From an uncultured Ignavibacteriota bacterium (GTDB taxonomy: Bacteria > Bacteroidota > Ignavibacteria > UBA10030 > UBA8401): 64,000 nucleotides of DNA. Under the pieces are notes generated by a model. That model had not been told where the DNA came from and did no database searches. It worked only from the letters and a program-made list of their open reading frames with translations. Below, piece after piece: positions 29,033-32,812 of the stretch. Each line of letters opens with the position of its first letter. The stretch's first letter is position 1. The position numbers and the translations under genes were made by a program. Location: positions 310,001 through 374,000 of the forward strand of contig CAIOTF010000017.1 of the NCBI GenBank assembly GCA_903861125.1, in the 5' to 3' direction.

Positions 29033-29120
<88 letters not shown>

Positions 29121-29142
29121 AGTTCGATGCAGTATTTTCACC

Positions 29143-29173
29143 AAAACCTGAATCCACGATGATTCGGGTTTTT
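29143..29173 (+). terminator. Hairpin with T run between the two tRNA-Ser genes
   Basis: AAAACCTGAATC / GATTCGGGTTTT, 12-bp stem (one T-G pair), 6-nt loop, ending in five T. It may end part of the transcripts or serve tRNA processing, since the second tRNA-Ser has no separate promoter that I can see. Confidence 0.65.
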
Positions 29174-29188
29174 AAGTTTTCAAAAATA

Positions 29189-29275
29189 GGAGAGGTGTCT
29201 GAGTGGTTGAAAGAGCCAGTCTCGAAAACTGGAGTAGTCGCAAGGCTATCGAGGGTTCGAATCCCTCCCTCTCCG
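29189..29275 (+). tRNA. tRNA-Ser (anticodon CGA)
   Basis: 87 nt with a long variable arm. Acceptor identical to the neighbouring tRNA-Ser (GGAGAGG / CCTCTCC); anticodon stem CCAGT/ACTGG with loop CTCGAAA; T arm GAGGG TTCGAAT CCCTC. Confidence 0.94.
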
Positions 29276-29421
29276 CATGATTTTTTTGATCACTACTTCC
29301 GACCGGTAGAATCTCCGTTTTTCAATTCTTTGTTTTTGCATATATTTCGTATGAGGGGAACAATCACCAGTCGTCCTGCGTTACAAACACCAGTTCATTT
29401 ATACCATTAAGGAGAAAACAC

Positions 29422-29886
29422 ATGGCAATTACCGTAGGTCAAAAAGCACCGGACTTTACATTAGCAGATGCATTTCGTAAACCGGTAACATTATCAGATT
29501 TTGCAGGAAAAAAAGTTGTCGTATTTTTCTATCCCGGCGCATTCACGGCGGTGTGTGAAAAAGAAATGTGCACGATCCGTGACGCTATGGCGGACTTTGA
29601 TTCCGGTGGAGTACAAGTGTTGGGAATTAGCGTTGACGCACCGGCCGCTAACAAGGCGTTTGCAGATAAAAACGGTCTGAAGTTTCCACTACTAAGCGAT
29701 TATACCCGGTATGTTTCAGCGCAATACTGCGGATTAGTGAATAACTTTGGAGGACTTATCGGCCTTACTACGTCGAATCGTGCGGCATACGTGATCGATG
29801 GATCGGGAACTGTTATGTTTGCATGGGTTTCGGAAAATCCGGGTATCGAACCTCCATACGACGAAGTTAAAAAAGCACTCGCATAG
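29422..29886 (+). CDS. Peroxiredoxin (AhpC/TSA, Prx5/AhpE-like)
   Basis: 154 residues. Reduces hydroperoxides through a peroxidatic cysteine in VFFYPGAFTAVCEKEMC, matching P-x-x-x-T-x-x-C; a second cysteine follows five residues later and one more sits at QYCGLV. N-terminal GQKAPDFTLADAF is the usual redoxin start. AAGGAG lies 10 nt upstream of the ATG. First gene of a tight run continuing through a second peroxiredoxin, pterin genes and two dehydrogenases. Confidence 0.92.
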   Translation: MAITVGQKAPDFTLADAFRKPVTLSDFAGKKVVVFFYPGAFTAVCEKEMCTIRDAMADFDSGGVQVLGISVDAPAANKAFADKNGLKFPLLSDYTRYVSAQYCGLVNNFGGLIGLTTSNRAAYVIDGSGTVMFAWVSENPGIEPPYDEVKKALA

Positions 29887-29902
29887 TCAGGGAAATATTT
29901 TT

Positions 29903-30367
29903 ATGACGCAATTAGTAATTGGTGTGAAGGCACCGAATTTTTCTCTTCTTGCACAAGACGGTAAGAAATATTCTTTGAAAGATTTCAAAGGAAAGAAAAT
30001 TGTTTTGTATTTCTACCCTAAAGATGATACCTCCGGCTGCACGAAAGAAGCATGTTCTTTTAGGGATAATCTTTCTGCAATAAAGAAAAAAGGGGCCATT
30101 GTTCTTGGTGTGAGTCCCGATGCCGTAAAATCTCACGAAAAATTTTCAACCAAGTACGATCTTAATTTTTCCATCTTGTCCGACGAAAGTAAAATAATGC
30201 TGACGGAGTACGGAGTGTGGCAGGAAAAAAGTATGTACGGCAGGAAATACATGGGGGTAGTACGGACAACATTCATTATTGATGAAAAAGGGAAAATCAC
30301 GCACGTATTTTCCAAAGTGAAAGTAGACGGCCACACCGAAGAAATATTAACGGCATTGTCGGAATAA
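29903..30367 (+). CDS. bcp: Thioredoxin-dependent thiol peroxidase (Bcp/PrxQ)
   Basis: 154 residues. The frame is open further upstream, but the ATG at 29903 gives the standard Bcp N-terminus (MTQLVIGVKAPNFSLLAQDG) and avoids overlap with the preceding gene. The active site YFYPKDDTSGCTKEACSFRD has both cysteines of the PrxQ C-x4-C pair, and WQEKSMYGRKYMGVVRTTFIID is diagnostic of Bcp. Its stop overlaps the next start (TAATG), so it is translationally coupled to the pterin synthase. Confidence 0.95.
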   Translation: MTQLVIGVKAPNFSLLAQDGKKYSLKDFKGKKIVLYFYPKDDTSGCTKEACSFRDNLSAIKKKGAIVLGVSPDAVKSHEKFSTKYDLNFSILSDESKIMLTEYGVWQEKSMYGRKYMGVVRTTFIIDEKGKITHVFSKVKVDGHTEEILTALSE

Positions 30368-30780
30368 TGGGAATAGTGTATGTATATCGCAGGGCTCATT
30401 TCAGTGCATCCCATCGGCTGTTTGATCAGGCGTTAAGTGATGAACAGAACGCGGAGATATTCGGAGCATGTTCAAATCCTAACGGACACGGACACAACTA
30501 TTACATAGAGGTATGCGTTGCTGGAATGCCGGCTGCAAAAACGGGATTTGTTATAGACCTGAAGAAAGTGAAAAAGATTCTCGAAGAAAAATTTTTAGAC
30601 AAGGTGGACCACAAAAACCTTAATGTCGATGTCGATTTTATGAAGGGAATCAATCCGACAACGGAAAATATTGCTGTTGCTGCCTGGAAACAGATTGCAT
30701 CACACATTTCGGAAGGGAAGTTGTACTCGGTGCGAATCTATGAAACAGAGAATAATTTTGTGGAATACAGAGGAGATTGA
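30367..30780 (+). CDS. 6-pyruvoyl-tetrahydropterin synthase-like enzyme (PTPS/QueD superfamily)
   Basis: 137 residues. Zinc ligands are His16 (FSASHR), His41 and His43 (NGHGHNY). The segment [14 protein letters not shown], with Cys35, and [10 protein letters not shown], with the Asp81-His82 pair, closely follow animal 6-pyruvoyl-tetrahydropterin synthase ([20 protein letters not shown]) rather than the shorter QueD pattern C-x-x-x-HGH. [11 protein letters not shown] and the terminal [10 protein letters not shown] also fit. It converts dihydroneopterin triphosphate to 6-pyruvoyl-tetrahydropterin in tetrahydrobiopterin synthesis; QueD activity cannot be excluded. Followed directly by folE and two SDR genes, which supply the preceding and possibly the following steps. 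Confidence 0.85.
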
Positions 30781-30782
30781 TT

Positions 30783-31373
30783 TTGGCCAAAGATAAATCG
30801 TCAAGCGCTGCAACTGTCCGATTGGAAAATCTGGTATTGGAACAGTTGAAACTGATCGGCGAAGATACGAAGAGGGAGGGGTTGATCAAAACTCCTCACC
30901 GTGTAGCAAAATCTTTGCAGTTCCTTACTAAAGGGTACACCGAAAATGTGAAGACAATATTAAACGGAGCCATCTTCAAAGAGGATTACAAAGAGATGGT
31001 AATTGTTAAGGACATTGATTATTTTTCAATGTGTGAACATCATCTGCTGCCGTTTTATGGAAAAATTCACATCGCATATATACCGAACGGTAAAATTGTC
31101 GGTTTAAGCAAAATTCCCCGTCTTGTGGATATGTTCGCACGACGGCTGCAGGTGCAAGAGAGAATGACCCGGCAAATTGCAAACACACTTTATGAAGTTC
31201 TGGAGCCCGAAGGAGTTGCTGTTGTGTGCGAAGGAAAGCATATGTGTATGATGATGCGCGGGGTGGAGAAACAGCATTCATTGGCAACCACCAGCGCCAT
31301 GCTTGGTGTTTTTCAGAATAATATCAAGACAAGAACAGAATTTTTAACTCTGATTACAAATAAACTTTCGTAA
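30783..31373 (+). CDS. folE: GTP cyclohydrolase I
   Basis: 196 residues from a TTG start. AGGAG at 30771-30775 lies 7 nt before the TTG at 30783, but only 1 nt before the alternative TTG at 30777, so 30783 is preferred. It makes dihydroneopterin triphosphate from GTP. Signatures: [20 protein letters not shown] (zinc Cys and His), [22 protein letters not shown], and [13 protein letters not shown] with the second zinc Cys. Placement after PTPS links it to biopterin-type as well as folate synthesis. Confidence 0.95.
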
Positions 31374-31376
31374 CGC

Positions 31377-32105
31377 ATGATCGAATTAGAAAAAAATTAT
31401 GTGCCGGTTGTTTGGGTTACCGGTGCTACTAAAGGAATCGGACTTGCGATCGCCAATGCGTTTGCGGTTATCGGTTGCAAGATAATTCTAAGCGGCAGAA
31501 ATAAATCCCAGTTGGAAATTAATGCCGGTAAGATCATCGATCAGGGCGGATATGCGCTTCCGTTGGCATGTGATATCACATCTGAAATCAGCGTACGCTC
31601 TGCAATGGCCACAATCACAAAAAAAGTAGGTGGTGTTGATATTCTGGTGAATAACGCCGGTGTTACAGTGTTCGAATCGTTTGAAAAAACGACCGTAAAA
31701 GAGTTCGACCAGATTGTTGATACCAATCTCCGCGGCTATTTTTTGTGTACGAAAGCTGTCCTTACATCTATGCTGAAACAGAAGAAAGGATATATTTTCA
31801 ACATTCATTCTGTTGCGGCAATAACAACGTTTAATAATTCCTCTGTCTATTCAGCCTCTAAAGCAGGTGCTTTAGCGCTTTCCAAATGTCTTAGAGCTGA
31901 AGTGCGAAAAAAAGGGATCCGTGTCATCGACATTCTTCCCGGTGCAGTTGAGACCGACATGTGGGATAAGCCGACACGCCGTAAATTTCATGCGAAAATG
32001 ATTCAGCCGGAAGATGTTGCCGATGCCGTTGTTTCAATCTTCTGCCAACCGCAGCGGATGACTACTGATGAAATTGTTTTGCGTCCCGTAGAAGGCGATC
32101 TGTAA
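31377..32105 (+). CDS. Short-chain dehydrogenase/reductase (first of a tandem pair)
   Basis: 242 residues. Classical SDR: cofactor loop TGATKGIG, NNAG in VDILVNNAG, catalytic Ser region NIHSVAA, and YSASK (Tyr and Lys). The N-terminal GRN after the second strand suggests NADP preference. Function cannot be read from the sequence alone; the position after PTPS and folE makes a sepiapterin-reductase-like role in pterin reduction plausible. It resembles the next gene and the two probably arose by duplication. Begins 3 bp after folE and its stop overlaps the next start. Confidence 0.85.
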   Translation: MIELEKNYVPVVWVTGATKGIGLAIANAFAVIGCKIILSGRNKSQLEINAGKIIDQGGYALPLACDITSEISVRSAMATITKKVGGVDILVNNAGVTVFESFEKTTVKEFDQIVDTNLRGYFLCTKAVLTSMLKQKKGYIFNIHSVAAITTFNNSSVYSASKAGALALSKCLRAEVRKKGIRVIDILPGAVETDMWDKPTRRKFHAKMIQPEDVADAVVSIFCQPQRMTTDEIVLRPVEGDL

Positions 32106-32812
32106 TGGAGTTAAAAGGTCTGACAGCGATAGTCACCGGTGCAAGCAAGGGAATAGGAAGAGCCATCGCGTTAACCCTTTCCACGCACGGTGTGAATGTA
32201 GTACTTGCTGCGCGATCAGCTGACATGTTAGCCGGAATTCAAAAACAAATTTCAAATTCCGGCGGTTCTTCAATTGCTATCCCGACGGATGTTACTTCCG
32301 AAAGTTCTGTACAAAACCTTATTAATGAAACGATCGTAAAATTCGGTACTGTAGACATTCTTATCAACAATGCCGGTGTAGGCAAGTTTTCCAACGTTGT
32401 TGATATGAAAACAGAAGAGTACGATAGAATGATGGATGTAAACCTGAAGGGGGTCTTTTTGTGCAGCCGAGCTGTTCTTCCCGCGATGATCAAGCAGCAA
32501 AAAGGAGAGATCATCAATATAGCTTCATTGGCCGGAAAGAATTCATTCGCAGGAGGTTCTGTGTATTCTGCATCAAAATGGGGATTGATCGGATTTGCAC
32601 GGTCGCTGATGCTGGAAGTTCGCGACCATAATATCCGCGTAGTTACAATTTCACCCGGATCGGTGAATACACATTTTGCCGATAAGGAAACTAATGAACC
32701 ACAGATTATTCAGCCGCAGGATGTAGCTGATACCGTTTTGTTTGCCCTGAATATGCCATCGCGGGTGAATGTCAGTGAAATTGATATTCGTCCTGCTAAA
32801 AAGCCGAGATAA
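32105..32812 (+). CDS. Short-chain dehydrogenase/reductase (second of a tandem pair)
   Basis: 235 residues. TGASKGIGRA cofactor loop, NNAGVGKF, NIASLAGKN with the catalytic Ser, and YSASK. AARS after strand two fits NADP binding. FabG- or sepiapterin-reductase-like by general pattern; no specific substrate signature is recognised. Coupled to the previous SDR by a TAATG overlap and last in the peroxiredoxin-pterin operon. Confidence 0.85.
   Translation: MELKGLTAIVTGASKGIGRAIALTLSTHGVNVVLAARSADMLAGIQKQISNSGGSSIAIPTDVTSESSVQNLINETIVKFGTVDILINNAGVGKFSNVVDMKTEEYDRMMDVNLKGVFLCSRAVLPAMIKQQKGEIINIASLAGKNSFAGGSVYSASKWGLIGFARSLMLEVRDHNIRVVTISPGSVNTHFADKETNEPQIIQPQDVADTVLFALNMPSRVNVSEIDIRPAKKPR

Follow-up and report, generated by a model that had tools for sequence, protein, structure and literature searches.

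A predicted tetrahydrobiopterin operon downstream of two peroxiredoxin genes in an uncultured Ignavibacteriota bacterium

The closest known system to the gene row described here is the biopterin pathway of Chlorobium tepidum, with a 6-pyruvoyltetrahydropterin synthase (PTPS), GTP cyclohydrolase I (FolE), a sepiapterin reductase (Protein Data Bank, PDB, entry 2bd0) and a pteridine glycosyltransferase. According to PMC5683033, C. tepidum contains L-threo-tetrahydrobiopterin (L-threo-BH4) and its N-acetylglucosamine glycoside. The signatures of the PTPS subfamilies, as given in PMC5041015, are CxxxxxHGH for PTPS-II, CxxxHGH for QueD and ExxHGH for PTPS-III, and the same paper puts the bacteria predicted to make BH4, from the literature and from co-occurrence with a reductase, at only about 50. 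The use of biopterin in bacteria that lack aromatic amino acid hydroxylases (AAAH) was described in 2012 as an open question (PMC3546692). We analysed a stretch of 64,000 nucleotides from an uncultured Ignavibacteriota bacterium (assembly GCA_903861125.1, contig CAIOTF010000017.1, positions 310,001 to 374,000; the whole stretch is called the window), in which PTPS, folE and two short-chain dehydrogenase/reductase (SDR) genes follow two peroxiredoxin genes. We put the probability that this operon makes BH4 at roughly 85%; the pathway itself is known.

Inspection of the open reading frames (ORFs) of the window bore out the six-gene row proposed in the first-pass annotation. All six genes are co-directional on the + strand at 29422-32812, and their families were confirmed with Pfam:

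29422..29886, + strand: prx1, operon gene 1, a peroxiredoxin of the AhpC-TSA family, 154 aa (PF00578, 2e-35); also upstream of PTPS in relatives
29903..30367, + strand: prxQ, a prxQ/Bcp-type thioredoxin-dependent thiol peroxidase, 154 aa (NF006960, 168 bits against a cut-off of 140)
30367..30780, + strand: PTPS, 6-pyruvoyltetrahydropterin synthase of type PTPS-II (PF01242, 4.8e-35; a 20-residue motif stretch; tree)
30777..31373, + strand: folE, GTP cyclohydrolase I (TIGR00063, 261.6 bits against a cut-off of 181.6; PF01227, 1.7e-75)
31377..32105, + strand: SDR1, a predicted C. tepidum-type sepiapterin reductase (adh_short; Ser-Tyr-Lys, equivalents of Phe99 and Trp196)
32105..32812, + strand: SDR2, a second short-chain reductase of a separate clade, without the Trp (adh_short)

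The row had been claimed to hold the full gene complement for tetrahydrobiopterin, and this was supported by the presence of folE, a PTPS-II gene and a gene of the sepiapterin reductase clade (SDR1) side by side. In the proposed pathway, FolE would convert GTP to 7,8-dihydroneopterin triphosphate, PTPS-II would remove the triphosphate to give 6-pyruvoyltetrahydropterin, and SDR1 would use NADPH to reduce the ketones of the side chain, giving BH4 in the L-threo form as in C. tepidum. SDR2, we guess, probably aids one of the two carbonyl reductions. The adjacent peroxiredoxins would link the pathway to peroxide defence, most likely because the synthesis or the use of the reduced pterin goes along with oxidative or electron-transfer conditions, and a known BH4-dependent hydroxylase is not what it serves. 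Three findings had been named beforehand as speaking against BH4 synthesis, namely a PTPS that groups with QueD, a queuosine operon that lacks any other QueD, and SDRs that match a different pathway; none of the three was observed in the source genome (4.19 Mb, rated 100% complete).

Both animal-type signatures noted in the first-pass annotation, a longer motif and DHKNL, are present in the PTPS protein, and residues 35-43 (CSNPNGHGH) carry the CxxxxxHGH signature of PTPS-II, which was found in 29/29 PTPS loci of one set of relatives. The best solved relatives in a PDB sequence search were 3i2b (1e-39) and 1b66 (1.3e-36), both named PTPS, followed by 2g64 (5e-29), 2dj6 (1.6e-9) and 2oba (5.5e-9); entries named 6-carboxytetrahydropterin synthase matched only at 6e-5 to 1e-4. 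In a PTPS tree of 73 rows and 141 columns, the window protein fell together with human, C. elegans and C. tepidum PTPS into a clade of 50 rows (support 100/99). All 23 rows outside this clade had CxxxHGH, and 12 of them lay within about 1.5 kb of QueC. Judged by motif and by this phylogeny, which had been suggested as a check, the window PTPS is a PTPS-II and not a QueD. Its description as eukaryote-like amounts to membership of the PTPS-II subfamily, which is common in the sampled phylum: 147 of the 148 sampled genomes had a match to the window PTPS, in 142 of them (read off the table) at E < 1e-30, a level that QueD-type paralogs do not reach. Neither these counts nor the tree support a transfer of PTPS from eukaryotes; the tree, in which the branching order inside the PTPS-II clade is unresolved, does not put eukaryotic rows beside the window protein. 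As a separate observation, four proteins of family f37 (L142, L144, L145 and L146) fell within the PTPS-II clade yet had the CxxxHGH motif of QueD, and a folE match was missing in 5/6 sampled f37 genomes; a biopterin enzyme has possibly been converted into a QueD in this family.

The best PDB match of SDR1 by sequence was 2bd0, the C. tepidum sepiapterin reductase (2.6e-42), and SDR1 was the best of 15 matches to the C. tepidum enzyme in its own genome (148 bits, with SDR2 at 134 and the third at 86). An AlphaFold model of SDR1 (pLDDT 86; below 50 at residues 147-150) returned 2bd0 at rank 1 in Foldseek, with a TM of 0.90 compared with up to 0.88 (on the query) for other SDRs among the 50 matches listed. 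SDR1 thus matches sepiapterin reductase best, by fold narrowly, and not a different pathway. It has the Ser-Tyr-Lys triad and the equivalents of both Phe99 and Trp196, residues which PMC7520308 reports as indispensable for substrate binding and as clamping sepiapterin in the C. tepidum enzyme. In an SDR tree of 59 rows, SDR1 proteins and C. tepidum-type reductases formed one clade of 36 rows (98/99). Besides the window proteins, this tree included SDR1 from 20 loci and SDR2 from 10; it held no animal sepiapterin reductase and left out 21 of the 30 Chlorobi-type proteins (L222-L251), and one own-genome match (L216) gave no row. Trp196 was present in 56/56 SDR1 rows and Phe99 in 51/56, with Pro in the remaining five, all from loci that do not belong to the class; the 56 rows include the window gene twice and eight loci twice, leaving 46 distinct loci besides the window. 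All 30 Chlorobi-type proteins had both residues. We predict from these comparisons that SDR1 acts as a C. tepidum-type sepiapterin reductase, and because it falls in the C. tepidum clade and keeps Phe99 and Trp196, its predicted product is likely L-threo-BH4.

The order prx-prxQ-PTPS-folE-SDR recurs across several families of the class. Because the same order is seen in other families at 53-62% PTPS identity, the gene row is more than chance. The closest named PTPS relatives, with 91% and 83% identity, come from uncultured Ignavibacteriae/Ignavibacteriales metagenome-assembled genomes. For scoring, 13 of the 80 loci in one listing of relatives were pooled with PTPS loci from other searches; most Pedobacter loci of that listing (PTPS-folE only) were left out. 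Once duplicates had been merged and the QueD-type loci L131-L135 as well as L254, where the contig ends and PTPS is missing, had been skipped, the pool held 80 loci, of which five were dropped for short flanks to give 75, many with flanks of just 1.5 kb. In this set folE follows PTPS in 69/75 loci. A same-strand upstream peroxiredoxin was found in 40 loci, with an SDR downstream in 39 of them (the exception is L167); among the 35 loci without an upstream peroxiredoxin an SDR was found in nine, eight of which lie outside the class. PMC5445326 reports two families as neighbours of PTPS-II; PF01227, the family matched by folE, is one of them, at a low coverage of 0.13.

Several points weigh against BH4 synthesis by this operon. 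Because the scored loci share ancestry and entered the set through sequence similarity, the peroxiredoxin and SDR counts describe a pattern and are not a test, and a p-value computed from them is not a probability; the SDR1 and SDR2 labels were themselves assigned by similarity to the window proteins. SDR1 is just 38-40% identical to the characterised C. tepidum enzyme, and its lead by fold is narrow. Phe99 is unspecific, as it also occurs in SDR2 and in three other SDRs of the source genome. Trp196 was found in 0/16 SDR2 rows and in 0/12 other own-genome SDRs (one of them gapped there), so Trp196 discriminates and Phe99 does not. The window PTPS scored below the cut-offs of both TIGR00039 (97.7 against 125.5 bits) and the QueD model TIGR03367 (65.3 against 89.25 bits). 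Three genomes of family f3 (G014, G055 and G210) have an SDR2-like SDR after folE and no SDR1 within the roughly 1.5 kb read. These three, together with G186 and G215, belong to the same taxonomic order as the source genome and combine QueC above the cut-off with a single PTPS-family gene, a PTPS-II where read, so that in these five PTPS-II may also serve queuosine. Family searches of the source genome found no AAAH, nitric oxide (NO) synthase or pterin-carbinolamine dehydratase (PCD); alkylglycerol monooxygenase was not among the families searched for.

The earlier suggestion that both SDRs could act as sepiapterin/6-pyruvoyl-pterin reductases was supported for SDR1, which lies in the reductase clade, and not for SDR2, which lies outside it. 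SDR2 proteins formed their own clade in the 59-row tree (99/98, 11 rows), and the best PDB matches of SDR2 were SDRs without a named substrate, with 2bd0 at rank 12. In an unlikely alternative, SDR2 rather than SDR1 sets the product, which would then be another reduced pterin such as a sepiapterin- or lactoyl-type compound or a glycosylated biopterin. In its favour, the row retains SDRs from two divergent clades next to each other, some relatives show only the SDR2-like gene after folE, and C. tepidum glycosylates its L-threo-BH4 (PMC5683033). However, SDR1 retains the residues by which the C. tepidum enzyme positions sepiapterin, and the six operon genes, to which the search was confined, hold no glycosyltransferase.

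BH4 as the product raises the matter of its use. AAAH was found in 9/99 genomes of the class, all of family f35, and NO synthase in 0/99. PCD (PF01329) occurred in 83/99, not including the source genome; compared with the nine AAAH genomes, most PCDs of the class are without their classical partner. The redox link proposed in the first-pass annotation is backed by the recurring gene order and not by biochemistry, and from gene order a role of the operon product in redox or peroxide defence is an attractive but open idea. In a stronger form, which we consider rather improbable, BH4 in Ignavibacteria would be a redox compound of peroxide defence and not a hydroxylase cofactor, donating electrons to or being protected by both peroxiredoxins, and a flavoprotein reductase, encoded by a seventh gene in two relatives of the same family, would recharge the system. 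The compact gene row kept beside peroxiredoxins across families of the class is a testable hint at oxidative stress or electron transfer. Ignavibacteria are not known to be phototrophic, which, if true, would make it less likely that biopterin serves photosynthesis alone.

Additional genes were seen in relatives. In two genomes of the family of the window, a Pyr_redox_2 flavoprotein is the seventh gene, right after SDR2 (L185:7534-8532 and L254:3242-4279), and is not in the window; we take it to resemble ferredoxin-NADP reductase type 2. Pfam identified an extra AhpC in L172, and clustering placed similar genes in L171 and L186; a DUF3501 gene lies just upstream of PTPS in L173 (Pfam) and in L174, L178 and L184 (clustering). 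Some of these genes fit a redox theme.

It is very improbable, and we reject it for the source genome, that the PTPS is a QueD making 6-carboxytetrahydropterin for queuosine, with folE giving the substrate and the SDRs as unrelated passengers. In favour of this reading, enzymes of the PTPS family can show promiscuity, the protein matches the QueD model of NCBIfam with 65 bits, and the five QueC-bearing relatives above have one PTPS-family gene. However, this match misses the TIGR03367 cut-off, the motif is Cx5HGH and not Cx3HGH, the tree separates the protein from those encoded beside QueC, and a gene of the sepiapterin reductase clade lies in the same row. A profile search of the source genome found no QueC, the only weak matches being NadE and MnmA; one match (26 bits, 63/210 positions) passed the formal Pfam cut-off of 22 and turned out to be NAD+ synthase. 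The PTPS is the sole PTPS/QueD-family gene found in the genome. By hand count over the 99 class genomes, QueC was above the cut-off in 84, with two PTPS-family genes in 64, one in 15 and none in five. The 15 genomes without QueC had two such genes in three cases, one in ten (including the source genome) and none in two. Five genomes of family f7 (G158, G165, G182, G188 and G197) had QueC above the cut-off and no PTPS-family match.

No GTP cyclohydrolase I gene other than the operon folE was found in the source genome, and FolB is present elsewhere in it (G000:C14), so FolE should supply folate as well as the operon pterin. Least probable of all is a folate branch in which the PTPS replaces dihydroneopterin aldolase in the manner of PTPS-III and the SDRs are FolM-like dihydromonapterin or dihydrofolate reductases: the only folE found does sit here and FolM is an SDR, but the genome has FolB, the PTPS lacks ExxHGH, and SDR1 groups with sepiapterin reductase (in a tree that held no FolM row), and we rejected this bypass for the source genome.

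Returning to the layout of the predicted BH4 operon, the claimed coupling to the peroxiredoxins by overlapping stop and start codons was found at prxQ/PTPS, which share 1 nt in TAATG. PTPS and folE overlap by 4 nt (TTGA), provided the predicted TTG start of folE is correct, and SDR1 and SDR2 overlap by 1 nt; the gaps are 16 nt between prx1 and prxQ and 3 nt between folE and SDR1. An alternative mechanical ORF start of prxQ at 29798 would overlap prx1 and was judged unlikely. We infer that the six genes are co-transcribed. A scan for promoters and terminators gave signals no higher than in shuffled sequences. Downstream of SDR2 lies an opposite-strand gene whose homolog in L036 matches Metal_resist/LTXXQ (Pfam). 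Directly upstream, outside the operon, lie:

29033..29276, + strand: two tRNA-Ser genes (GGA, CGA)

Searches of the open-licence literature found nothing on biopterin in Ignavibacterium or tetrahydrobiopterin in Ignavibacteria and, judged from the listing, no related report of an operon of peroxiredoxin and 6-pyruvoyl tetrahydropterin synthase. When sepiapterin reductase was combined with four genus names, the term was absent among the open-licence matches listed, and the Melioribacter genome paper (PMC3534657) contains no word beginning with pterin, peroxiredoxin, phenylalanine hydroxylase or queuosine.

Among known systems, QueD (PTPS-I) shares the superfamily PF01242 with the window PTPS, which differs by Cx5HGH versus Cx3HGH, by its separate tree position and by the lack of a detected QueC. 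In Bacteroidota such as Pedobacter, PTPS-folE pairs have PTPS followed by folE as in the window, with PTPS 46-54% identical; unlike the window, no SDR1 or SDR2 relative and no peroxiredoxin was found alongside them. With the animal BH4 pathway (GTP cyclohydrolase I, PTPS and sepiapterin reductase) the same three reactions would be expected to be shared, and 3i2b and 1b66 are mammalian PTPS, whereas no AAAH or NO synthase was found in the source genome; SDR1 carries the clamp residues of the C. tepidum enzyme, in a comparison that did not extend to the animal reductase. In genome G106, taken as C. tepidum, the reductase is 100% identical to 2bd0, and neither of the 9-kb stretches read, around PTPS-folE and around the reductase, holds a gene related to prx1 or prxQ. 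The window and C. tepidum share the PTPS-II motif (there CSGKYGHGH), a PTPS adjoining folE, and a reductase with Phe99 and Trp196. About 143 kb separate this reductase from PTPS-folE in C. tepidum, whereas the window joins all three genes, SDR2 and the two peroxiredoxin genes in a single row.

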